From: Hydrogenobacter sp. T-2
GTDB taxonomy: Bacteria; Aquificota; Aquificia; Aquificales; Aquificaceae
Length of the DNA: 64,000 nt
Direction of reading: 5' to 3'
Assembly (NCBI RefSeq): GCF_033971325.1
Contig: NZ_CP117180.1
Coordinates: forward strand, 1,308,041-1,372,040
Shown: positions 9,400 to 39,642 of the stretch, one piece after another
How the letters are laid out: the number at the start of each line of letters is the position of its first letter
Position numbering within the stretch: the stretch's first letter is position 1
Translations under genes and position numbers: made by a program
Notes under the pieces: model-generated
The model's database searches: none
What the model was told of the DNA's origin: nothing
What the model saw: only the letters and a program-made list of their open reading frames with translations

Positions 9400-10278
9400 T
9401 CAACTCAAAAGTCTCTCTTCCCTCAAAAGCTCCAAAACATCTCCAGAGTTTATTAACTTCTCTATCAAAGCATTTAAATATTCCCTGTTCCTTATGCCCT
9501 TCACCTTTACTTCTACACCTTCAGGAACTCTTCCAATCTTGCCCCTTATAAGAGTCAACACTGTATCTTGCAATGCTTTTATGAACCCTTCCTCATGTCC
9601 AATCTGTTTACCTTCCTCAAGTCCAAGTCTATACAGAATGTCCTTTTTCAACTTCCTCTTTGGCAGTTTTATATCCTCAGGTCTAACCACTATAGGCATG
9701 TGCTTGACCTCCTCTGTGAGCCTTATCCTTAAGTTAGGTCTCAGTTCTGTTAGCGTCAAGGCTTTCAAAAGGTAGTCTTTTCTCTCTTCTTCGTTCATGC
9801 TTTCCATCGTCTTTATGAGCTTTTCTATGAGATATACCTCATCCTCTACCTTACACAAACAAGCCAATAGCCTATCCATAGGGTCTGGGCTTTCCAATAG
9901 CACTCTGCAGTCTATCTGCCTTATGTCAAGTATTTCATACCTAAAGACTAAGTTCTTAATCTTGAGAGAGGTCTTCATTCTGAGCTTTTTATTTCCTACA
10001 TACACCACAAGCTGTTTTATGTTGTATGTTTTGTATTTTTCTGCTATGGCGGTATAGTAGCGGAGCATTCTCCAAGGCATGTTTGCATCGTTAAAGGATT
10101 GGAACTCCATATGTAGGATGCTTTCATCTTCAAGTTTTGCCAAGAAGTCCACTCTTAGCTCAGTGGATGGCAGAGATGTTGGCAATAGCTCTTTGATAGG
10201 GGCTGGAGAGAGGATTTTGCTAAGCCTGTGTGGGACTTCCTCGAAGATGTCTTTGAGAGTTATATCTTTTGAAGACTC
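9400..10278 (-). pseudogene. Rpn-family PD-(D/E)XK nuclease/putative transposase, start codon lost
   Basis: Close paralogue of the intact gene at 60585. The Rpn (TIGR01784) PD-(D/E)XK core is visible as ELRVDFLAKLEDESILHMEF with E-F-Q, followed by MPWRMLRYY. A block of more than 50 residues around DPMDRLLACLCKVEDEVYLI is essentially identical to the paralogue. In the paralogue translation starts at GTG; here the aligned codon (10276-10278) is GAG and no ATG or GTG follows in frame nearby. The first usable start is TTG at 10185, which would remove about 31 residues. The TATAAT before the ancestral start is kept (10290 to 10285). The C-terminal GxEEG repeats are fewer than in the paralogue. It may be inactive, or expressed from TTG (9400-10185, 261 residues). 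Confidence 0.7.
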
Positions 10279-10348
10279 AGAAGGATTATATCATCAAACA
10301 ATTTTCTCCTTGCATTTCTTATGGTGGCTCAAGGTTATTAATCACCCT

Positions 10349-10373
10349 ATAACTTGCAACTTGCGTTATGATA
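10349..10373 (-). repeat. Right inverted repeat bordering Rpn unit
   Basis: Partner of 9301-9325, inverted, 23 of 25 positions identical. The unit 9301-10373 is 1,073 bases and contains only the Rpn gene. Confidence 0.75.
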
Positions 10374-10402
10374 GAGTTTATACAAATTTTGAAACGGCCC
10401 TC

Positions 10403-10559
10403 AAAACCTGTCTGATAAGCGGCATAAATGCCTCTGGAGTAAGGCACAGGGATTGATTGAAAAACAATAAATACTTTCAGTCAATCCCTAAACTTGTGGT
10501 ATTAGAAACTGTGGACTAATGTCCTTAAAAGAGATATCTGTCCATGCTAAGGGATACTC
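10403..10559 (-). repeat. Right arm of long imperfect inverted repeat
   Basis: Inverted partner of 8444-8591. The outer 25 bases (10535-10559) are a perfect match. A 43-base inner block (10403-10445) matches at about 35 positions. On the plus strand 10405-10470 reads NLSDKRHKCLWSKAQGLIEK then TAA, related to the transposase relic in the left arm. The segment 10449-10491 can fold into a 12-base stem (11 of 12 paired). The arm ends on the first base of the argS stop codon complement. Confidence 0.7.
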
Positions 10560-12211
10560 TACATCCTCTCAGGAGCTTCTATTCCCAGCAATTCAAAAGC
10601 AGTCCTTAGAGTTATCTCCACACCCCTAAAGAGGGCAAGTCTCAAGAGCATGAGTTTTCTGTCCTCCACCATTACCCTGTGGTGGTTGTAGTAGTAATGG
10701 AAATCCTTTGCAAGCTCAAGGAGCGAATAGGTTATAAGGTGAGGAGACAGTGCCTTGGCTACCGCCTCAAAGGTATCTTTTAGGTATAGACACTTCTTAG
10801 TCAGTCTAAGGTCTTCCTCAGAAAGCCCATGCAGGTATTCTCTTAAGTCTTCCTTATCTGGGTCTATGCAATACCTTTCCTTGACCTCTCTAAAGACTCC
10901 TCTTATCCTTGCATAAGCATACTGCACATAAAAGACGGGGTTTTCTGTGGTGTTCTTCTTTACAAGGTCTATATCAAAGTCCAAAGGCGTATCGCTGTCC
11001 CTTGTGAGAAAAACAAACCTTACCGCATCCTTTCCCACCTCTTCTATTAGCTCCTGCAGGGTAATAAACTCGCCAGTCCTTTTGGACATACGCACCTCTT
11101 GACCACCGCTTATGAGCCTTACCATCTGGACAAACTCCACCTTTAACCAATCCTCTGGAACATTAAGAGCTTTTAGAGCACCTATAAGCCTTCTTTCGTA
11201 TCCGTGATGGTCCGCACCCCAAAGGTTTATAACCTTGTCAAAGCCTCTTTGGAACTTTTGGTAATGATAGGCTATGTCCGAGGCAAAGTAGGTCCAAGAG
11301 CCATCGGACTTTCTAACTACCCTATCCTTGTCATCTCCAAAATCTGAGCTTTTGAACCACAAGGCACCATCCTTTTCGTATATGTAGTTCCTCTCCCTTA
11401 ACTTTTGCATAACCTCTTCCACAAGACCTCTCTCATAAAGGCTTCTCTCGCTAAACCAACTATCAAAGGACACAGACAAAAGCTCAAGGGTCTCTTTAAT
11501 ATCCTCAAGAAGTCTCTTGTGAGCATACTCTTTACAAAGGTCTATAGCCCTTTCCCTTTCAAGGTCTAAAAGTTCCTCTCCGTAAAAAGCCTTTAGGTCT
11601 TTGGCAAGCCTTTTTATGTATTTGCCCTTATAGCCTTCCCTTTCAAAGACCTCTCTTAGCTCTGGGTCTTCCTTTCCAAAAAGCTCGTAGTATCTATGCA
11701 AGACCGAAAGCCCAAGCATGTAGACCTGATTGCCCGCATCGTTTATGTAATACTCCCTTAGGACCTTGTGTCCGAGCCTTTGGAGAAGTTTTGAGAGCAC
11801 ATCGCCTACTACCGCACCTCTTCCATGTCCCACATGTAAAGGACCAGTAGGGTTGGCACTTACAAACTCCACTTGAATATACATAGGCTTTTCCACAGGC
11901 TCAAAGAAGTAGTCCTGCCCCTTTGTGAGAAGCCCTTTGAACTCTCCCCTCACAAACTCCTCGCTGAGCCTTATGTTTACAAAGCCCTTGACCGCCTCTG
12001 CAGTCATTAGGTGGTTTGAGAGCTTGCTCGCCAGCTCTTGAGCAATCTCCTGGGGGTTTTTCCTAAGAGACTTGGAGAGCAAAAAGGCTACGTTGGTGGC
12101 ATAGTCTCCATAGCTTTCTTCCCTTGGTGGCTCAAGGCTAAAAGAGTTTATCTCTATGGAATACAGCTCCTTTATCCTTTCCCTTATAGCCCTTTCAACA
12201 AATCCCTTCAC
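10559..12211 (-). CDS. argS: Arginyl-tRNA synthetase
   Basis: Class I synthetase charging tRNA-Arg. The N-terminal Add1 domain (1-110) is followed by NPTGPLHVGHGRGA near residue 120 (HIGH-type motif), then VRMSKRTGEF near residue 370 in place of KMSKS. The C-terminal anticodon-binding helices contain NPVFYVQYAYARI. The 550-residue length is normal. It is the last gene of the malQ-sensor-cupin-argS run, starting five bases after the cupin stop. Its TAG stop (10559-10561) coincides with the outer edge of the relic island, so an insertion landed exactly at the end of the gene without shortening it noticeably. Confidence 0.95.
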   Translation of the reverse strand: MKGFVERAIRERIKELYSIEINSFSLEPPREESYGDYATNVAFLLSKSLRKNPQEIAQELASKLSNHLMTAEAVKGFVNIRLSEEFVRGEFKGLLTKGQDYFFEPVEKPMYIQVEFVSANPTGPLHVGHGRGAVVGDVLSKLLQRLGHKVLREYYINDAGNQVYMLGLSVLHRYYELFGKEDPELREVFEREGYKGKYIKRLAKDLKAFYGEELLDLERERAIDLCKEYAHKRLLEDIKETLELLSVSFDSWFSERSLYERGLVEEVMQKLRERNYIYEKDGALWFKSSDFGDDKDRVVRKSDGSWTYFASDIAYHYQKFQRGFDKVINLWGADHHGYERRLIGALKALNVPEDWLKVEFVQMVRLISGGQEVRMSKRTGEFITLQELIEEVGKDAVRFVFLTRDSDTPLDFDIDLVKKNTTENPVFYVQYAYARIRGVFREVKERYCIDPDKEDLREYLHGLSEEDLRLTKKCLYLKDTFEAVAKALSPHLITYSLLELAKDFHYYYNHHRVMVEDRKLMLLRLALFRGVEITLRTAFELLGIEAPERM

Positions 12212-12216
12212 ACCTT

Positions 12217-12486
12217 TTATTTTAACACCCTTCTACTTCCACAGATATACTTCACACCCTTTTCGGTTCTTGCCCAGTGCCTTGTGCCTGCCCTTACCTC
12301 TAACATATCCCCAGCCTTTAAATGATACACACCCTCCTCAGTCCCTATAGTTATCTCACCCTCCAGCACATATCTTACCTCATCCTCCGGATGCCTATGC
12401 CAGTCATAATAAGTCCCCGGCGGGTCATACCACGTGTAGAAACCACCATAGCCCAAAGCCCTGAGCTTATCTTCAATATCTTTCAT
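12217..12486 (-). CDS. Small cupin-domain protein
   Basis: An 89-residue single-domain cupin. Cupin motif 1 is visible as YDWHRHPEDEVRYVLEGE, with His, His and Glu metal ligands and the conserved G. Motif 2 is LKAGDMLEVRAGTRHWART with its His. Proteins of this size typically bind a metal in a beta-barrel; the substrate is unknown. The start overlaps the stop of the large signalling gene by four bases (ATGA), and argS begins five bases after its stop, so it is an internal operon member. Confidence 0.85.
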   Translation of the reverse strand: MKDIEDKLRALGYGGFYTWYDPPGTYYDWHRHPEDEVRYVLEGEITIGTEEGVYHLKAGDMLEVRAGTRHWARTEKGVKYICGSRRVLK

Positions 12487-15400
12487 CTCAAGGCACCTGC
12501 TAGTTTATTTCTACGCTCCTCAAGAAATCTTACCATATCCTCCATATTCATCGGCTTGGCAAAGAGATAACCTTGGACAAAATCACATCCCATACCTTGA
12601 AGCATTCTAAGTTGAGGCTCAGTCTCTATACCCTCCGCAAGGGTTGCAATTCCAAGGTCTCTTGCAAGTGCTATGGTATTTCTAACTATGGCTCTTATTC
12701 TTTTGTTGTTTATCATATTCTTCACAAAGGACATATCTATTTTCAGTATGTCTACTGGTAGTTGCGTAAGTTGAGAAAGGGTGGAATAACCCGTTCCAAA
12801 GTCATCCATGGCTATTTTTACACCCCTTTCCCTCCTTAAGGTTTCAAGTAATTCAAGCATTTCACTTCCGAGCTCTAATATTACCCTTTCAGTTATTTCT
12901 ATAACGAGTGGTAGCTGTGGCATAGCAAGAAGGGTTTTGACAAACTCCGCTTCTTTAAGCGTGCTTGCGGATAGATTTATAGAAAGCTTTAAACCCAGTT
13001 TTCCTGCAGATTTTATAGCCTCCCTTATAAGCCAACCTTCAAAACTACGCAGATATCTACTCTTCTCAAGATAGTCTATAAAATATGCAGGCGTGTATAC
13101 CTTCCCATCCTTGTCCGCTATTCTTACTAAACACTCCGCACCAACAGCCTCAAGTGTATCTGCCTCAAAGTAAGGCTGAAAATATAGGACAAATAGCTCA
13201 TTCTCTACGGCATTCTTTACCAACTTCATAGCAAAAGTAAAGTCTTGAATCCTTTTCTCAATATTTTCATCTGTGACTACTATTCTACCTTCTCCAAATT
13301 CCTTAGCTCTTTTGAGTGAGCTCTTTGCCTTTGAATAAAGCTTGCCGAAACTATCTCCGTCCCTTGGATAAAGGGAAATTCCTGCGTTAATGGATATAGG
13401 TATTGGCTCTCCAATGTCCACGTATTTATCCATAAGCCTTAATAACCGCTCCTCCAGTATGTAGACATCTTCCTCCATCCTTATGGGTATAAGCATACCA
13501 AACTTGTCCCCATATAGTCTACTGATAAATTTCGCATCTTTAAATTCGCTCTTTAACAATTCTCCGAAAGCCTGCACATACTTGTCTCCTGCGGATATGC
13601 CAAAATTCCTGTTTATATTTCCAGTGCCATACAAGTCAAGTATAACAAAGGCAAAGCTTTCCTTTGATGCCTGCTTGAGACCTTCTCCCACCATACTCTC
13701 AAAACCCTCTTTGTTTAGAAGACCGGTCATTGGGTCTGTAAAGGCAAGTCTACTTACCTCCTCTGAAAGCTCTATCTCTCGTGTTATATCTTTTCCTATG
13801 GAAACGTATCTTGTAATGCGTCCTGGAAGCTCCAAGGGATATATATGCTGTTCTAAATAAAAGGTCTCGCCGTTCTTTTTCCTATTTACAAAAACCGCAT
13901 GGAATTCCTTGCCTGACTTTATGGTTTTCCATAGCTCTTCATAAAACTCTTTATCGTGAAAGCCAGACTTGAAGATGTTAGTCTTTCTGCCCAATAACTC
14001 TTCTCTTGAGTATCCCGATATCCTACTTACCGCCTCATTTACATAAGTTATTACACCCTTTTCATCAGTCACTACGAGCCAGGCACTTGACCGGTCTAAG
14101 GCATTTTTTATGATAAAGGCTTTTCTCCAATCGTAAATCCTATTAAGGGCAAACTCAAGGTCATGCCTGAACTCGCGTAGTATGCCCCTCACTTCTCTTT
14201 CATCAAAGTAATAGGGTTCTTGAGAATACAGATTTAGCAGATATAGCTTACCCTCTGGTCCCCTTATAGGAATGGAGCAAAAGGAGTAAACTCCAAAGTC
14301 CAAAAGCCAGCTATGTTCCTTGTTTTCCCTAACCTCTGGCTCAATGTATATTTCTTCCTTTCCTATAACCTTGTATTTTCCCATAAACCTTTCTTTAAGC
14401 TCATCCTCCAAACCGTAGGCTTTATATAGCACAGGGTCTCCTTCCTCTTTTATAAGAGCAATAAATTTAAGGTCCAAGTGCTCCATAAGACTCTTGCACG
14501 TCTTATCAAAAAGCTCCTCTTCAAACAGAGATGTGGTTATGGCAATGTTTACTTCTCTCAAGGTCCTGTAGAGGCTTTCAAACTTTTTTCTTTCCGTTAT
14601 GTCTATAAAAAGCACAAGTCCTCCATAAGACTTTTCCCCATAGGGCACAGTAATGGAGTAGGTATAGGTATGTATGTATTTTCCTCTTTTGTTTAAATAA
14701 ATAAGCTCGTTATAGTCATGTATAAACTGTTCTCCTTTTATTCTCCTTTGGACAATTTCAAAAACCTTATCCCTGTATGACGGATGAATTATGTGGTTTA
14801 TAGCCTCCTCTAAGGACATTTTAGTTAACTCTTCTTCTTTGTATTCAAGAGTTTTAAGGGCGTAATCATTTGCAAAGACTATACCTTTTTCAGAGTAAAG
14901 TATTGAACCCACGCCACGTGAGTTCTCTAAAATATAAAAGGCTTTTACTTTAGTCCATAGCTTATATATATGGTCAAAGTTCTCGTAAGCTTTGAGGAGT
15001 TTTTCAAGTATGTGCTCCGCAGGCTCAAAATCGTCACCTTTGAAGAATTCTTTTAGTCTTTCCTCAACCTCTGGCTTCACCATAAAAATGTGGGAAGATT
15101 CAAAGACAAAAGTGTCCATGACCTTTAGATTTTTTCTTCTTTCCTTTTGAACGTTCTCCCATATTTCCTCATACATTATGCAGGCATGGACTTTACCCTC
15201 TTCAAGGTATGCCAACGCCCTCTGCCAACTTTCACAAAGCTCCACTTCCACTCTTTCTATATCAAGCTGAAGAAGAATAAGCCCCACTGGTCTGAGAAGG
15301 GCTGTAGACACCTTTATTGCCCCCTCTTTTGGTATGTCTCTATAGACGAGAAAATACCTATCCCTCTGCCCTTTGAATTTTGCAATGGGTTTATAACCCC

Positions 15401-15611
15401 TTCTATATAGTTCTACGGAAGAAAAAGGGTTTGCGTAATATATATCAAAGAACTTACCGCTTTCCATTCTCTCCTTTTCCTCAGAAAAGTCCAAAAGAGG
15501 CTCAAAGCTAACCTTTTCACCTACACTTTCGTGGAGTTTGCGAGCAAACTCTTCCCATCTTTTAAATCTTTCCCCTTCCGTATCGTGTGGACATACAGAA
15601 AATCTTAACAT
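12483..15611 (-). CDS. Multidomain sensor: PhnD-like, PAS, GAF, PAS, degenerate GGDEF, EAL
   Basis: A 1,042-residue protein predicted to be a c-di-GMP phosphodiesterase. Residues 1-220 resemble a PhnD/periplasmic phosphonate-binding domain (FDIYYANPFSSVELYRRGY), but there is no signal peptide or membrane helix, so the ligand sensor would be cytoplasmic. A PAS follows (about 230-345), then GAF (350-500), then a second PAS (505-630, SRISGYSREELLGRKTNIF). In GGDEF (635-790) the signature reads YGDKF, so cyclase activity is doubtful. EAL (800-1040) has ECLVRI in place of EALxR and keeps INLSAS, EITER, DDFGTGYS, KIDMSF and AEGIET, the usual metal and catalytic residues. Its ATG shares one base with the malQ stop. 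Confidence 0.85.
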   Translation of the reverse strand: MLRFSVCPHDTEGERFKRWEEFARKLHESVGEKVSFEPLLDFSEEKERMESGKFFDIYYANPFSSVELYRRGYKPIAKFKGQRDRYFLVYRDIPKEGAIKVSTALLRPVGLILLQLDIERVEVELCESWQRALAYLEEGKVHACIMYEEIWENVQKERRKNLKVMDTFVFESSHIFMVKPEVEERLKEFFKGDDFEPAEHILEKLLKAYENFDHIYKLWTKVKAFYILENSRGVGSILYSEKGIVFANDYALKTLEYKEEELTKMSLEEAINHIIHPSYRDKVFEIVQRRIKGEQFIHDYNELIYLNKRGKYIHTYTYSITVPYGEKSYGGLVLFIDITERKKFESLYRTLREVNIAITTSLFEEELFDKTCKSLMEHLDLKFIALIKEEGDPVLYKAYGLEDELKERFMGKYKVIGKEEIYIEPEVRENKEHSWLLDFGVYSFCSIPIRGPEGKLYLLNLYSQEPYYFDEREVRGILREFRHDLEFALNRIYDWRKAFIIKNALDRSSAWLVVTDEKGVITYVNEAVSRISGYSREELLGRKTNIFKSGFHDKEFYEELWKTIKSGKEFHAVFVNRKKNGETFYLEQHIYPLELPGRITRYVSIGKDITREIELSEEVSRLAFTDPMTGLLNKEGFESMVGEGLKQASKESFAFVILDLYGTGNINRNFGISAGDKYVQAFGELLKSEFKDAKFISRLYGDKFGMLIPIRMEEDVYILEERLLRLMDKYVDIGEPIPISINAGISLYPRDGDSFGKLYSKAKSSLKRAKEFGEGRIVVTDENIEKRIQDFTFAMKLVKNAVENELFVLYFQPYFEADTLEAVGAECLVRIADKDGKVYTPAYFIDYLEKSRYLRSFEGWLIREAIKSAGKLGLKLSINLSASTLKEAEFVKTLLAMPQLPLVIEITERVILELGSEMLELLETLRRERGVKIAMDDFGTGYSTLSQLTQLPVDILKIDMSFVKNMINNKRIRAIVRNTIALARDLGIATLAEGIETEPQLRMLQGMGCDFVQGYLFAKPMNMEDMVRFLEERRNKLAGALR

Positions 15612-17092
15612 TAAGGATAATTATAACTCCTCCCATATAGCTTGCACACAAATCCGACCCACTCCCAAAGCTCTCTATTTGGCATTTCCCTTAACTTCCA
15701 CTCCCAGTTGCCTTCTGGCTTGGCAGGAGTGTTCATCCTTGCCTCTTGTCCGAGCTCAAGTAGGTCTTGCATAGCAATTACGCAATACTTTGCCACAGAC
15801 ATGTAAGCAAGTCTAACAAGTGCATGGCTTATGCTCTCAGGTGTGTATCCAAGATAGTCTAAAACCCTTGCCCTCTGCCACTCGTTTAATTCCTCAAAGA
15901 ACCATCCTCTTATAGGCATGTTGTCATGGGTGGTGGTGTAGACCACAGAGTTATAGGTGTGGTTATGAGGCAGGTGTTCTGAGTTTTTGTCAAAAAAGGC
16001 AAAGGCTAAGACTTTCATTCCCGGCAGTCCAAAGTGGTCTCTTAGGCTATGAACCTCTTGGTCTATTGTGCCAAGGTCTTCTGCTATAAAAGGCATGTGT
16101 GGAAACTCTTCTCTTATAGTTTCAAAAAGACTATAGCCTTCTGCTTTTTCCCACCAGCCTCTTTCTGCGGTCTTTTCTCCATAGGGAACTTGATAAAAGG
16201 CACAAAAGCCTCTAAAGTGGTCAAGCCTTACAAGGTCAAAAAGCTCAAGGGCATGCCTTATTCTCAAAAGCCACCAGTCAAAACCCCTTTCCTTTAGCCT
16301 GTCCCATCTGTATACGGGGTTTCCCCAAAGCTGTCCCGTTTTTGAAAAGTAGTCGGGTGGCACGCCAGCCACCACCTCTGGAAGTCCATCCTCTCTTAGC
16401 TTGAATATCTCTCTGTCTGCCCAAACATCCACACTGTCCGGTGCAGGGTATATGGGTAGGTCTCCCACAAGGCTCACACCCTTTGAGTTGGCGTAGGTTC
16501 TTAAAGCCTTCCATTGCTTGAAGAAAAGAAACTGGACTACCTTTTCTCTTAGAACCTCCCTTTCTGAAAGCTCTGGCAACTGTTTCCATTCCCACCAAGG
16601 CCTTTTAAGTTTTTTCTTTATTAGGTTGAATCTAACATAGTCCTCAAGCCAGTATGCCTGCTCTTGGCAAAAAAGGTAAAACTCTTGGCTCTCCTTGAAG
16701 TTTTCCAAAGCCTTTTCCAGCATATGTGCCTTTAGGGCGTAAACCCTCTCGTAGTCTACTCTATCGGAGGGCTCTACCCTTAGGCTCTCAAGGGTCTGTC
16801 TGTCTAATAGACCTTCCTCGTATAAAAGTTCTGGGCTTATAAATAGAGGGTTTCCTGCAAAGAGAGAAGAAGAGTAGTAGGGTGAGTTTCCATGCTCCAC
16901 CTCTGTGGGGCTAAGGGGTAAAACCTGCCAAAGGCTTTGACCAGATTCCGCCAAAAGGTTCACAAACCTGTAGGCAACGGGTCCCAAGTCCCCTATGCCA
17001 AAGTCAGAGGGCAAGGAGCTTATGTGGAGCAAAATGCCAGCTTTTCTTTCCACGAAATAACATTTTAAACCCTTGACGATGATAAAAGTCAT
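15611..17092 (-). CDS. malQ: 4-alpha-glucanotransferase (amylomaltase, GH77)
   Basis: Transfers alpha-1,4-glucan segments in glycogen and maltodextrin metabolism. GH77 hallmarks: GILLHISSLPSDFGIGDLG near the N-terminus, the catalytic nucleophile Asp in VRLDHFRGF, the acid/base Glu in FIAEDLGTI, and the stabilising Asp in TTHDNMPIRG. About 490 residues is normal. The longest frame begins at ATG 17092, which would place the start inside the divergent oxidase promoter. GTG at 17053 (VERKAGILLHI) gives the typical family N-terminus and is preferred. It leads the operon containing the EAL sensor, cupin and argS. Confidence 0.92.
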   Translation of the reverse strand: MTFIIVKGLKCYFVERKAGILLHISSLPSDFGIGDLGPVAYRFVNLLAESGQSLWQVLPLSPTEVEHGNSPYYSSSLFAGNPLFISPELLYEEGLLDRQTLESLRVEPSDRVDYERVYALKAHMLEKALENFKESQEFYLFCQEQAYWLEDYVRFNLIKKKLKRPWWEWKQLPELSEREVLREKVVQFLFFKQWKALRTYANSKGVSLVGDLPIYPAPDSVDVWADREIFKLREDGLPEVVAGVPPDYFSKTGQLWGNPVYRWDRLKERGFDWWLLRIRHALELFDLVRLDHFRGFCAFYQVPYGEKTAERGWWEKAEGYSLFETIREEFPHMPFIAEDLGTIDQEVHSLRDHFGLPGMKVLAFAFFDKNSEHLPHNHTYNSVVYTTTHDNMPIRGWFFEELNEWQRARVLDYLGYTPESISHALVRLAYMSVAKYCVIAMQDLLELGQEARMNTPAKPEGNWEWKLREMPNRELWEWVGFVCKLYGRSYNYP

Positions 17093-17120: not shown

Positions 17121-17141
17121 AACCGCACAGGAGGTGCGAAC

Positions 17142-18554
17142 ATGGATGTGCTTGGCTTTCAGCCCATGTGGTATGTGCCTGCCATAGGCAGTGCCACAGT
17201 CATCGCCGTTATCGCCACCATTCACGTCATGGCATCCCACACATCAGTGGGTGCTTCCATTTTGCTGGCATACCTTGCCACAAAAGCCTACCGGGAAAAC
17301 ATCCCCCAGCTCTACGACTACATCAAAAAGTATCTGTTGACACTGCTCGTGTTCTCTTACGTCTCTGGTTCTATAAGCGGTCCTGGTATATGGTTCTCCG
17401 CCACAGTGGCAAACCCCAGAGGTATATCCGCCCTTATACACAACTTCGTTTGGGTCTGGGCTGCAGAGTGGATATGGTTCGTGGCTGAGGTGACTCTTGT
17501 CTACATACTCTTTTATACCCTTGGCAGGATAGACCAAAAGAGCTGGTTAAAGCTCGCGTGGATTTTTGCCATAGGCTCTTGGGCAACCATGTATATCATC
17601 GTAGGCATACTCTCTTTTATGCTCTCACCGGGTCATGAAAAGTGGTTTACCACAGGAAACATCCTTGACGCCTTTTATAACAAGAACTACTTCCCACACC
17701 TTCTTATGAGAAGTGCCTACATGTTTGCTATAGCGGGCACTATAGGTATAGTTATCGCAAGCCTTATGAGAAAGGATATACCCGAGAAAGTCTACAAGGA
17801 CATAGTTAGAACCATGTCCTACTGGGGCATAGGTGGTCTTGTCTTTGGAACTATGTTCTTTGGATGGTATTTCTCCACACTACCAGAAAGAAGCCTTGTA
17901 ATGCTTGCTGGAATAGTGCCAACATGGTATTATGGTCTAATATTCGGCATACTTCTTATCCTCCTCGCACACTTTGTGCTTACTTCCATAAAACCAACCG
18001 CTGCAAGAGCTTATATCGCATTACCCATATACGCGCTCATATTCTTCATGGGTGTATATCCAGAAGAGAAGATAAGGGAAACCATCCGCAAGCCCTATGT
18101 GGCTGGTGAATTTGTGTGGGTCAACCAAATTATCGCCAGAGATGTGCCAGCCAAGGATATAAAGTCTGAGGTGGACATCATTAACGAAAAGGGCTATCTC
18201 CAAGTCAACGCCTTTGTGCCAGAGGGTCTAAAGACCATAACACCCGAAAACAAGATAATGGCAGGAAAGGCAATAGCCATACTCCAATGCTCTGGATGCC
18301 ACAATGTGACAGGAGCCTCTGGTCTTAGACCCTTTGCTAAGAAATTTGAAGGTATGGACTCAGAGGATATGGTCTATGGTTTCCTCTCCAACTACCTTAC
18401 TCCTCAAGCTCATCCTCCATACATGCCCTACTTTGTGGGTAAGGACGAGGAGCTACGAGCCCTTTCAGCCTACATAGCGGATATGATCTCAAAGGGTGGT
18501 AGAGTCTCTGCCAAGATAGAAGTGCCAAAAGCAACTCTGGAGGCACATAAATAA
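17142..18554 (+). CDS. Cytochrome bd-superfamily oxidase subunit I-like with C-terminal cytochrome c domain
   Basis: A 470-residue membrane protein with about nine helices and a hydrophilic C-terminal domain. The membrane part resembles CydA: an early helix with IHVMASHTSVGASILL, then FSYVSGSISGPGIWFS and AAEWIWFVAEVTLVYI, where the conserved Glu of the bd family falls. From about residue 370 a periplasmic-type domain carries CSGCH (heme c) and a possible Met ligand in PPYMPYF. This architecture recalls bd-superfamily groups reported to carry heme c (OR-C type), so the electron donor may be a c-type cytochrome rather than quinol; that is inference. AGGAGGTG (17129-17136) precedes the ATG by five bases. 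The second subunit follows after a short gap. Confidence 0.8.
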   Translation: MDVLGFQPMWYVPAIGSATVIAVIATIHVMASHTSVGASILLAYLATKAYRENIPQLYDYIKKYLLTLLVFSYVSGSISGPGIWFSATVANPRGISALIHNFVWVWAAEWIWFVAEVTLVYILFYTLGRIDQKSWLKLAWIFAIGSWATMYIIVGILSFMLSPGHEKWFTTGNILDAFYNKNYFPHLLMRSAYMFAIAGTIGIVIASLMRKDIPEKVYKDIVRTMSYWGIGGLVFGTMFFGWYFSTLPERSLVMLAGIVPTWYYGLIFGILLILLAHFVLTSIKPTAARAYIALPIYALIFFMGVYPEEKIRETIRKPYVAGEFVWVNQIIARDVPAKDIKSEVDIINEKGYLQVNAFVPEGLKTITPENKIMAGKAIAILQCSGCHNVTGASGLRPFAKKFEGMDSEDMVYGFLSNYLTPQAHPPYMPYFVGKDEELRALSAYIADMISKGGRVSAKIEVPKATLEAHK

Positions 18555-18566
18555 GGAGGTGTGGAC

Positions 18567-19889
18567 ATGAGCATGGTGGCCTATCAAAACCTAACAAGGT
18601 GGGTATTGCTTGGCGTATTGGCTCTTATGCTACTTGGCGGCAGGCTTGCCTTCGCAGGGCAGTCCCCTGCGGAGGTCGGAGCCATGCTAAAAGCCATGGC
18701 TGACCCTGCGGGTGCTCCCTTCTACCCAGTGGTTATGCAGATACTACAAGTTATCACATGGGCTCTCCACATAGTCTTTGTTTGGACTTCCATTGGTGGA
18801 CTTTTCTATGCCATATACGGCTTTACAAGAAAAGACCCAAACCACCAAAGGCTCGCAAAAGCTATGCTTGAGCTTTCAAAGGTGTCTGTCTCTTTGGCGA
18901 TAGTTCTCGGTGTTGCACCTCTTTTGTTCTATCAAGTCATCTATGATTCTCTTTGGTATGCATCCGCTAACCTATCTGCAAGTTGGTATATGATGTTTAT
19001 AGTCTTTCTGCTTATTGGCTACTATCTTATATGGGGTGCATACTTTACCAAAAACAGACCTCAGCTTGCCACCTTTTTCTCCATAGGTGGTGTTATCTTC
19101 CTCCTCGCTGTGGGTTTTCTAATTCACGTGGTTAACTACCAAGCTCTCTATCCAGAAAAATGGGTAGAGTGGTATACCTCTGGTGGAACCACTATGAACC
19201 ACACTGGTTGGAACATATATGCCTTTAACATCTTCAGATACCTTGCCTTCCTCGTATTTCCATCCATTTCCGTTACTGGCGTCTTTATGATGCTATACGC
19301 TTGGTATTTTGGAAAAAGACCAGAGTTTGAAAGGGACTATGTAAACTTCTCTGCAAAACTTGGTGCAAAGCTCGCTCTCATGGGTGGTGCTGGCTGGATA
19401 GTCTTCCATGTGCTTTACATATTCTCTGTTCCAGCAGATTGGAACGCGAAGGGTAGCATCTTTGCATGGCTTTCTGTCCTTGGACTACTGCTCTGTGCGG
19501 GTGTTATATTCATAGCCCAGAAGAACCCCATTGGCATGGCAATTCCTTCTCTCGTTGCTGGCACGGTGGCAACTCTTCTTATTGCGGTCTTTAGAGAATA
19601 CCTCAGGGTCTCCTCTACCGCACGTTTTGGATACTCCATATACGAATATAAGGTGAACCTTGAATGGCTTAGCCCAATGCTCTTCGTAGGAACAACTCTG
19701 ACAGGTCTTATACTCTACGCCTACACTTGGTGGATGGCTTACAGAGCAGGAAGAACACCAAAGGGCGAAGTCTATCAAGCTAACGAGACAGAAGATGCTC
19801 TTGGAAACGCCTCTGTCTTTATCGTAACCCTGTGGGCTGTAGTCTTTATTGGCACAGGTCTTATAATCATAGCCAGAAACTACCTATAA
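18567..19889 (+). CDS. Second membrane subunit of the bd-type oxidase
   Basis: A polytopic membrane protein with about ten helices, lying directly after the heme-c-fused subunit. Two starts are possible: GTG at 18561, which touches the AAGGAGGT Shine-Dalgarno (18553-18560), and ATG at 18567 with a six-base spacing. The ATG is preferred, giving 440 residues. The first hydrophobic segment ends RLAFAGQSP and could be a cleavable signal. The next helices contain ITWALHIVFVWTSIGGLFYA with a His that may ligate heme, a pattern reminiscent of subunit I, suggesting the two subunits are distant paralogues. No CXXCH is present. A strong terminator follows, closing the two-gene operon. Confidence 0.72.
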   Translation: MSMVAYQNLTRWVLLGVLALMLLGGRLAFAGQSPAEVGAMLKAMADPAGAPFYPVVMQILQVITWALHIVFVWTSIGGLFYAIYGFTRKDPNHQRLAKAMLELSKVSVSLAIVLGVAPLLFYQVIYDSLWYASANLSASWYMMFIVFLLIGYYLIWGAYFTKNRPQLATFFSIGGVIFLLAVGFLIHVVNYQALYPEKWVEWYTSGGTTMNHTGWNIYAFNIFRYLAFLVFPSISVTGVFMMLYAWYFGKRPEFERDYVNFSAKLGAKLALMGGAGWIVFHVLYIFSVPADWNAKGSIFAWLSVLGLLLCAGVIFIAQKNPIGMAIPSLVAGTVATLLIAVFREYLRVSSTARFGYSIYEYKVNLEWLSPMLFVGTTLTGLILYAYTWWMAYRAGRTPKGEVYQANETEDALGNASVFIVTLWAVVFIGTGLIIIARNYL

Positions 19890-37175: not shown

Positions 37176-38381
37176 TCAACAAAATTGTATTATCCGTGCC
37201 CATAAATCTGTTATCTTCTCTATATCAAAATCCCTTGCCCTCTGCAAAGCTTTATTTCCATACTCCTCTATTAACTCCTCCCTCCTTAGCAACTCTTTCA
37301 AAGTTTCCACCCACATCCTTTCCACCTCATCCAAAGGCTCGTCAGCCATCTTAAATTTTACCTCAAAGACAGGCATAAGGATGCCATACTCTGCATATTC
37401 TGGCTCTTTTGTTTGGTATTCAAAGTCCGTATCTGGTGCTAATATCTCCCTTGGTCCAGACCTACAGTCAGCAGAAACTACCGCAGTCCCACAAGCCATA
37501 GCTTCTGCCAAGGCATTTGGAAAACCTTCAAAAAAAGATGGAAAAATAAATAGCTTTGACCTTGCTATAAACTTAAAGGGATTTTTCTGGAAACCGAGGA
37601 AATAAACATCAAAACTCTCAGACAATTGGTCTTTGTCCCATACATAGGTCTTTAGCCCTAAGTCCTTTGAAAGACCAGTTAGATATTCCTTTAACTCCCC
37701 CTCTCCAAGAATGAGGAGTTTTAGCTCTGGAAATTCCTTTTTTAGTTCCTTGAATATCCTTAACAGATACCACTGACCTTTTTGTTTGGTTAGTCTTCCA
37801 GCAGTTATTAAAACTGGATAGTTGAAAATGGTTTCATATTCTCCTAAAGGCTCTCTGGAAAGCTCCTTAATGTCGTCTATAAATATGGGATTGTAAATGA
37901 CTACTAATTTGTCTTCAGGAACTCTATAAGAGGTTTTAAGCTCTTCAGCTATGCTTTTTGATACGCATATAACCATGTCTGCTTTGGGATAAAGAAGTTT
38001 AGATAGAAGGTTATATGGATGATGTCTTTTTCTTCCTGTCAATTGCGACATACGGATGGAAATAAAAGCCCTGTGTTTTGAGTATGGCTTTGCTAATATG
38101 TTTACATAGTTAGCTCTCTCTAAGAAAGAGATTACAAGGGAATTTTTTTCTAATCTTTGAGACAAGTTCTTAGCATATAGAGGTATGTAAAAGGTCTTTA
38201 GTATTGGGTTTGTTTTGGTTGTATGACTTGAAAGAAAAACTATCTTCTCCTCTGGAATTTCGTATTTTATCTCTCTTTCCAATAGCAAGAGCCTTTTTAC
38301 TGGCAATATTTTAGAAAGGTTTACCGCTACCCTTTCTGCACCACCACCCGCAAGAGAGTTGAGAAGGAAGTAAATATCCAT
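37176..38381 (-). CDS. Family 4 glycosyltransferase, copy A of a mosaic pair
   Basis: A 401-residue GT-B enzyme. The N-terminal acceptor half starts MDIYFLLNSLAGGGAERVAV and differs clearly from copy B. From about residue 165 to the end (VIYNPIFIDDIKELSRE, VLITAGRLTKQKGQWYLL, FPSFFEGFPNALAEAMACGT, SADCRSGPREIL) it is almost identical to the neighbour at 38389. The donor-side Glu residues of GT4 are present. An identical donor half with a different acceptor half suggests both use the same activated sugar on different acceptors. It lies eight bases after copy B. Confidence 0.88.
   Translation of the reverse strand: MDIYFLLNSLAGGGAERVAVNLSKILPVKRLLLLEREIKYEIPEEKIVFLSSHTTKTNPILKTFYIPLYAKNLSQRLEKNSLVISFLERANYVNILAKPYSKHRAFISIRMSQLTGRKRHHPYNLLSKLLYPKADMVICVSKSIAEELKTSYRVPEDKLVVIYNPIFIDDIKELSREPLGEYETIFNYPVLITAGRLTKQKGQWYLLRIFKELKKEFPELKLLILGEGELKEYLTGLSKDLGLKTYVWDKDQLSESFDVYFLGFQKNPFKFIARSKLFIFPSFFEGFPNALAEAMACGTAVVSADCRSGPREILAPDTDFEYQTKEPEYAEYGILMPVFEVKFKMADEPLDEVERMWVETLKELLRREELIEEYGNKALQRARDFDIEKITDLWARIIQFC
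37212..37918. repeat. Direct repeat unit 1, shared GT4 C-terminal half
   Basis: About 707 bases, aligned without gaps to 38422-39128 at a constant offset of 1,210. Differences are concentrated in the part coding the last 60 residues; the part around 37580-37910 is nearly identical. The edges are sharp at both ends. Confidence 0.85.
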
Positions 38382-38388
38382 ATCGTAT

Positions 38389-39642
38389 TTATTTTCTCAA
38401 AATATTTTTCCATTCTTCAGCTATCTTCTCTATATCAAAATCCCTTGCTCTTTGCAAAGCTTTATGTCTATACATTTCTATTAACTCCTCCCTCCTTAGC
38501 AACTCTTTCAAAGTTTCCACCCACATCCTTTCTATCTCATCCAAAGGCTCATCAGCCCTCTTAAATTTTACCTCAAAAACAGGCATAAGAACGCCATACT
38601 CCGCATATTCTGGCTCTTTTGTTTGGTATTCAAAGTCCGTATCTGGTGCTAATATCTCCCTTGGTCCAGACCTACAATCAGCAGAAACTACCGCAGTCCC
38701 ACAAGCCATGGATTCTGCTAAGGCATTTGGAAAACCTTCAAAAAAAGCTGGAAAAACAAATAGCTTTGACCTTGCTATAAACTTAAAGGGATTTTTCTGG
38801 AAACCAAGGAAATAAACATCAAAACTCTCAGACAATTGGTCTTTGTCCCATACATAGGTCTTTAGCCCTAAGTCCTTTGAAAGACCAGTTAGATATTCCT
38901 TTAACTCCCCCTCTCCAAGAATGAGGAGTTTTAGCTCTGGAAATTCCTTTTTTAGTTCCTTGAATATCCTTAACAGATACCACTGACCTTTTTGTTTGGT
39001 TAGTCTTCCAGCAGTTATTAAAACTGGATAGTTGAAAATGGTTTCATATTCTCCTAAAGACTCTCTGGAAAGCTCCTTAATGTCGTCTATAAATATGGGA
39101 TTGTAAATGACTACTAATTTATCTTCAGATAATCCAAAGTTTTCTATTAGGTCTTTCTTTACTGCTTTTGATGTAGCTATCATGATATCACTTTTGTTAT
39201 ACATATTTTTAAACATAATTTTATAAAAAAACCTTATAATAACTCTTCTTAAACCATTACCTAAAAAAGGATCCTCTGAAAACTGTTGTGAATAATGGGC
39301 ACGGAAGGATAAAATAACCTTATCTCTGTCTTTTGTTATAACATTCAAAAAATTTGCAGGTTCAAGCAGGCTTAAACATGTTGTGATTTTGTATTTAGAT
39401 TTAACCCTTTTTAGTCTAAAATACCTTATAGGCAGGTTAATAAATTTTTTAATCAAACTTTGAGATGCAGGTGATTTAATGCATATTATTCTTTCCATAG
39501 GCAAGGGAATGGGATAAGCTATGTGCGTATCATCCAATAGAATTAAATAGTCAAAGTTTAGCTTCTTCATCAAGTTAACTGCCACCCTTTCCGCACCACC
39601 TGTTCCAATTGATGGAATAAATATAGCTTTAAAGCTTCCCAT
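38389..39642 (-). CDS. Family 4 glycosyltransferase, copy B of a mosaic pair
   Basis: A 417-residue GT-B enzyme. The N-terminal half (SIGTGGAERVAVNLMKKL, SLLEPANFLNVITKDRDK) is only distantly like copy A. The C-terminal donor domain matches copy A almost residue for residue, with small changes such as FPAFFEGFPNALAESMACGT. It ends WKNILRK, whereas copy A ends differently. Shine-Dalgarno GAGGTGA precedes the ATG. It belongs to the same cluster and probably transfers the same sugar type as copy A; the sugar is not predictable. Confidence 0.88.
   Translation of the reverse strand: MGSFKAIFIPSIGTGGAERVAVNLMKKLNFDYLILLDDTHIAYPIPLPMERIICIKSPASQSLIKKFINLPIRYFRLKRVKSKYKITTCLSLLEPANFLNVITKDRDKVILSFRAHYSQQFSEDPFLGNGLRRVIIRFFYKIMFKNMYNKSDIMIATSKAVKKDLIENFGLSEDKLVVIYNPIFIDDIKELSRESLGEYETIFNYPVLITAGRLTKQKGQWYLLRIFKELKKEFPELKLLILGEGELKEYLTGLSKDLGLKTYVWDKDQLSESFDVYFLGFQKNPFKFIARSKLFVFPAFFEGFPNALAESMACGTAVVSADCRSGPREILAPDTDFEYQTKEPEYAEYGVLMPVFEVKFKRADEPLDEIERMWVETLKELLRREELIEMYRHKALQRARDFDIEKIAEEWKNILRK
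38422..39128. repeat. Direct repeat unit 2, shared GT4 C-terminal half
   Basis: Partner of 37212-37918 at an offset of 1,210 bases and in the same orientation. This pair is a substrate for homologous recombination that would delete about 1.2 kb and fuse the two genes into one hybrid glycosyltransferase. Confidence 0.85.

Follow-up and report, generated by a model that had tools for sequence, protein, structure and literature searches.

An archaeal enzyme made of two CydA subunits, CydAA′, reported by Murali in 2021, is said to be a quinol oxidase, unusual in composition and without a fused haem c. The OR-C families, named by Murali, Gennis and Hemp in 2021, are reportedly marked by a cytochrome c domain fused to a CydA-like subunit without a quinol site. 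OR-C, qOR and OR-N are named families of the cytochrome bd superfamily (PMC13189123, PMC10839748). The OR-N proteins of Nitrospira and Nitrospinota have no Q-loop, comprise two CydA-related partners and are regarded as a putative cytochrome c oxidase (PMC10839748, PMC12342949, PMC3578206); the bd-like protein of Nitrospina has 14 helices, and its cytochromes c are separate proteins (PMC3578206).

The host is a hot-spring bacterium whose genome, a single contig of 1.69 Mb, belongs to an Aquificaceae genus adjoining Hydrogenobacter and Thermocrinis. The window, the whole 64,000-nucleotide stretch analysed here, contains two adjacent genes on the + strand, encoding subunit I (17142–18554) and subunit II (18561–19889), together filling the range that an earlier note on this DNA had marked. 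Subunit I, a 470-residue protein comprising a CydA-like membrane part and a C-terminal cytochrome c domain (assigned from its open reading frame, Pfam, relatives, tree and Foldseek), starts at ATG 17142, 5 bases beyond the Shine–Dalgarno sequence AGGAGGTG (17129–17136, + strand). Subunit II, a CydA-prime-like paralogue by its profile and structure matches, is 442 residues long from GTG 18561 and 440 residues long from ATG 18567. The ATG is the more likely start: the GTG directly adjoins the AGGAGG ribosome-binding site (18554–18559, + strand), which itself abuts the subunit I stop and lies 7 bases ahead of the ATG. Upstream of the pair is a divergent 4-alpha-glucanotransferase-like gene (15611–17092, − strand) and downstream, from 19937, a mechanosensitive channel-like gene, both judged by eye. 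No conserved functional neighbour of the pair was found in Aquificaceae, where the flanking genes vary by genome, so that the unit is the pair alone. RefSeq labels the relatives only ‘cytochrome c’ and ‘hypothetical protein’; the enzyme is overlooked by standard annotation.

Other parts of the window have features of their own. A protein of 1042 residues encoded at 12483–15611 (− strand) looks by eye like a fusion of PhnD-type periplasmic-binding, PAS, GGDEF and EAL domains. Between 32000 and 44250 (− strand), the GC content is 0.35–0.37, compared with about 0.44, and the genes, judged by eye as encoding glycosyltransferases, an asparagine-synthase-like protein, methyltransferases and a flippase-like protein, resemble a surface polysaccharide island. 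Two tandem glycosyltransferases in it (37176–38381 and 38389–39642, − strand) are ~93% identical in their C-terminal parts and only ~36% identical in their N-terminal parts, a pattern as if from gene conversion or chimeric duplication.

The membrane part of subunit I has eight transmembrane helices, which are related to helices 1–8 of CydA; the ninth is missing. Residues 21–226 match PF01654 (Cyt_bd_oxida_I) with 24.7 bits in hmmscan, just below the family cut-off of 26.2 bits, and with 26.3 bits in the genome search. Comparison of a profile built from 19 diverse relatives with one of about 35–40 sequences of the CydA family gave a probability of 98.3% (E 1.9e-14), compared with 0.4% for CydB, 0.3% for COX1 and 1.5% for the reversed CydA alignment. 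The AlphaFold models of the two subunits are weak because the alignments are shallow (pLDDT 60 and 72; 60 for subunit I, from 15 sequences); the top 11 Foldseek matches of the subunit I model are all cytochrome bd chains, the best being 5doq_A (E 3e-4). The Pfam match, the profile comparison with its controls, Foldseek and the alignment columns of H19, E99 and E107 together show the CydA-related TM1–TM4 core of the bd superfamily, confirming subunit I as a member. Chance is excluded, because subunit I is encoded in 23 of 64 Aquificaceae genomes.

Three residues of this core were located by an unsupervised alignment of canonical CydA, subunit I and subunit II. H28 (17223–17225, + strand) shares one column, across all rows of the three groups, with E. 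coli CydA H19, a haem d ligand (PMC8585947). E109 (17466–17468, + strand) corresponds to E. coli E99 and is glutamate in all canonical CydA and all subunit I rows and in no subunit II row, and E116 (17487–17489, + strand) corresponds to E107, being glutamate in canonical CydA and subunit I, aspartate in Thermus, and glycine or alanine in subunit II. The spacing of seven between E109 and E116, one shorter than in E. coli, agrees with a one-residue insertion in TM3 of E. coli CydA that is missing in Geobacillus (PMC8585947).

After helix 8, E313-T-I-R316-K-P-Y319 (18078–18098, + strand), whose motif E313xxR316KPY is invariant in the subunit I rows, is the probable counterpart of E445-x-x-R448-Q-P-W, which comprises the haem b595 ligand and the GRQPW motif. 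The profile alignment has low confidence there, and E309xxR312 offers an alternative match; E309 as the E445 equivalent was set aside because the pattern ExxR[KQ]P[YW] suits E313 better, although the choice is ambiguous. In the register given by this motif, E309 itself (18066–18068, + strand; 19/19 subunit I rows) occupies the position of W441, which is invariant in canonical CydA. Each of the 19 diverse relatives aligned retains equivalents of H19, E99, E107 and, as identified by motif, E445 and R448, with one E107-to-Asp exception.

The features tied to quinol are missing. TM6 and TM7 of the subunit I model are joined by a loop of ~15 residues with no Q-loop, and in the profile alignment K252 and E257, invariant in the CydA set, have no counterpart; nor does the haem b558 ligand M393, and the position aligned to the other ligand, H186, is variable. 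The subunit’s own H186, which happens to share its number with the E. coli residue, was rejected as a b558 ligand: the profile sets canonical H186 against M189, and Thermus, Agrobacterium and the second clade do not conserve the histidine. The reading in the earlier note is supported in each part that could be checked, the missing Q-loop among them.

The cytochrome c domain occupies about residues 365–450 (18234–18491, + strand; PF13442 and PF00034), with the Pfam match covering residues 372–445. Its haem attachment motif CSGCH (residues 383–387; 18288–18302, + strand) is CxxCH in 19/19 subunit I rows, and M428 of PPYM (18423–18425, + strand), the likely distal haem ligand, is equally invariant (19/19). 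The fusion of a CSGCH- and PPYM-bearing domain to a CydA-like membrane part, described in the earlier note, stands. The N-terminal stretch has no lysine or arginine, and the odd-numbered loops, taken as inside, are slightly richer in lysine plus arginine. Together with the even helix count, these charges place both ends of the protein outside, including CSGCH, the side of the membrane on which the earlier reading depended. This placement is consistent with haem being attached at CxxCH in the periplasm, and it would put the haem c domain within reach of a periplasmic cytochrome c.

No Pfam match was found in subunit II of the window, and PF01654 matches the subunit II of five Hydrogenothermaceae genomes with 20–22 bits. 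The subunit II profile aligns with that of subunit I at 99.1% probability over 397 columns in hhalign (3.8% for subunit I against reversed subunit II) and with CydA at 96.8%; as CydB it was rejected, at just 0.3%, in line with the suggestion from its first inspection that it is CydA-like rather than CydB-like. An HMM of subunit I also matches a Bacillaceae subunit II (2.6e-5) over nearly its full length. Foldseek returned no match below 1e-3 for the subunit II model, with bd subunits forming 9 of the 10 best. H70 (18768–18770, + strand), in the column of CydA H19, is invariant in 19 subunit II rows, and a late helix carries, close to its end, (E/H)346-x-x-R349 (19596–19607, + strand), with glutamate in the clade of the window and histidine in others, its match to one or the other ExxR of subunit I being ambiguous. 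Both TM3 glutamates are lost, glycine or alanine standing at the E107 position. The matches to subunit I and CydA, with the retained H19-type histidine, show subunit II to be a paralogue of subunit I and a duplicated CydA. As a separate observation, the Hydrogenothermaceae subunit II has a C-terminal CxxCH domain of its own, and loci L061, L062, L063, L064 and L065 of this second family have a cytochrome c domain on both subunits, a two-haem-c version.

Beyond Aquificaceae, a divergent form of subunit I is found in five Hydrogenothermaceae-like genomes of the same order, and subunit I is encoded in 6 of 398 sampled Bacillota and, within a single Bacillota order, in 7 of 397 genomes. No sampled Aquificaceae genome combines subunit I with canonical CydA, whereas both occur together in some members of the second family. 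In every complete locus inspected, the genes for subunits I and II are adjacent. Subunit I, subunit II and canonical CydA form three clades with support of 100/98 or better, so that subunit I falls outside the quinol-oxidising CydA, as the earlier note had anticipated; the long branches leave the deep order of the three clades unsure. The same three subgroups recur within the subunit I and subunit II clades, and the two trees are congruent for the members from Aquificota, Bacillota, Thermus, Methylosinus and Agrobacterium, with pairwise distances of 10 representatives correlated at 0.90, a value reached in none of 500 shuffles. In other Aquificaceae (L066, 3132–7639, and L067), a CydA-like protein of ~580 residues has CxxCH proteins encoded beside it. 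It falls outside the subunit I clade and is similar to the bd-like proteins of the OR-N kind.

Subunit I is also encoded on plasmids of Methylosinus, Thermus and Agrobacterium. The pair itself lies on plasmids of Methylosinus, near methanobactin genes and feoB, and of Agrobacterium (L041/L044), and so moves between distant bacteria. In both genera a sensor kinase and a response regulator are encoded downstream of the pair, and in Methylosinus a small cytochrome c lies between the pair and the regulator genes. The best NCBIfam matches are ActS/PrrB/RegB for the sensor kinases (213 and 228 bits; equivalog cut-off 350) and ActR/PrrA/RegA for the Methylosinus response regulator (156 bits; cut-off 250). 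RegB and RegA are redox regulators of respiration. In one Bacillaceae locus (L013) the first gene encodes a dihaem cytochrome of SoxA/TsdA type (52 bits to PF21342), suggesting thiosulfate as an electron source in that genome; a TsdA partnership as a general rule was rejected, the gene being confined to L013 and absent from six other Bacillales loci. At L071, the locus of a close relative, a gene at 9552–10709, sulfide:quinone-reductase-type by eye, lies directly upstream of and divergent from the pair.

We read the pair, with a probability of about 0.7, as a heterodimeric bd-superfamily membrane O2 reductase fed by periplasmic cytochrome c and not by quinol. The kept O2-site residues favour O2 chemistry; a donor role for cytochrome c is favoured by the missing quinol site and the fused haem c, and respiration by the RegB/RegA-type genes adjoining relatives. 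Complex formation, O2 as substrate and cytochrome c as donor are what we infer from these features, with low-O2 respiration or O2 removal as the putative physiological role. The haem c domain of subunit I would be the entry point for electrons. From there they would move to a haem of b595 type, bound through the E313/R316 motif, and then to a second haem on H28, the predicted site of O2 binding and reduction, with protons supplied from the cytoplasm through E109 and E116. Both elements through which quinol feeds ordinary cytochrome bd, the Q-loop and the low-spin haem b558, have been lost, and subunit II, a duplicated CydA minus the TM3 glutamates, would replace CydB and may carry one further b haem. 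The haems are probably of type b rather than d; no CydC scored above its cut-off in the host, a weak hint of b haems only. The host also encodes two SoxA-TsdA-type proteins and a bc1-type cytochrome b, which fits a cytochrome-c-linked sulfur metabolism. Its four COX1-family matches represent several haem-copper oxidase-type subunits, so that the need for a bd-type enzyme is not obvious.

This abundance of oxidases is one reason to consider that the same haem pair instead reduces NO, or peroxide, with electrons from cytochrome c, as a detoxifier and not a respiratory oxidase. An architecture leading from haem c to a high-spin haem would suit NO chemistry, and no sequence feature separates the substrates; retention of the equivalents of E99, E107 and E445, typical of O2-reducing bd enzymes, and the redox regulators adjoining two relatives, which point to respiration, nevertheless make this unlikely. 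The archaeal CydAA′, reportedly a CydA pair able to oxidise quinol, raises the question of whether the present pair has remained a quinol oxidase, its quinone site being unrecognised and its haem c serving as an extra electron shuttle. That reading is quite improbable: the residues of the Q-loop, the b558 ligands and GRQPW proper are either absent or variable, and such an enzyme would have no need of an attached periplasmic haem c. A role without O2 reduction, in electron transfer between cytochrome c and the quinone pool, has been proposed for the Q-loop-less bd-like proteins of Nitrospina and Nitrospira (PMC3578206); it would be very improbable here, as a quinone site is not seen in subunit I, which retains the O2-site glutamates and ligands.

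Within the preferred reading of a cytochrome c-fed O2 reductase, a more specific path can be imagined, in which electrons pass from haem c through a haem in the glutamate-less subunit II to the active-site pair of subunit I, E309 in place of W441 altering proton or electron delivery. In sulfur oxidisers, thiosulfate oxidation might then be coupled to O2 with neither quinol nor a haem-copper centre involved, a speculative extension that we regard as doubtful.

If the preferred reading is true, it adds a terminal oxidase. The solved bd structures among the Foldseek matches are quinol oxidases, and a heat-stable two-subunit version using cytochrome c, taken from a relative of Hydrogenobacter, would be a good target for studying O2 reduction, the donor and how a haem pair works without b558 and a quinone site. 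As far as could be established, no bench study of this kind of enzyme was found; the kind has already been proposed from genomes, and the pair is a biochemically uncharacterised member.

Compared with canonical CydAB (qOR), the pair shares the fold, the haem-site residues of TM1–TM4 and probably the E/R motif, but has no Q-loop, b558 ligands or helix 9, carries an added haem c and has a subunit II that is not CydB. Like the archaeal CydAA′ it consists of two CydA paralogues; that enzyme is reportedly a quinol oxidase without a fused haem c, in contrast to subunit I. The absence of a Q-loop and the two CydA-related partners are likewise found in OR-N CydAA′, although subunit I, with eight helices, a fused haem c and a clade of its own, differs from the 14-helix Nitrospina protein with its separate cytochromes c, and lacks the greater length and the additional helices that replace the Q-loop in OR-N. 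Both features reported for OR-C, the fused cytochrome c domain and the absent quinol site, are present in the pair. OR-C is likewise a CydA relative without a quinol site, with no known difference from the pair, and by these features the pair most likely belongs to the OR-C kind as a cytochrome c:O2 reductase.
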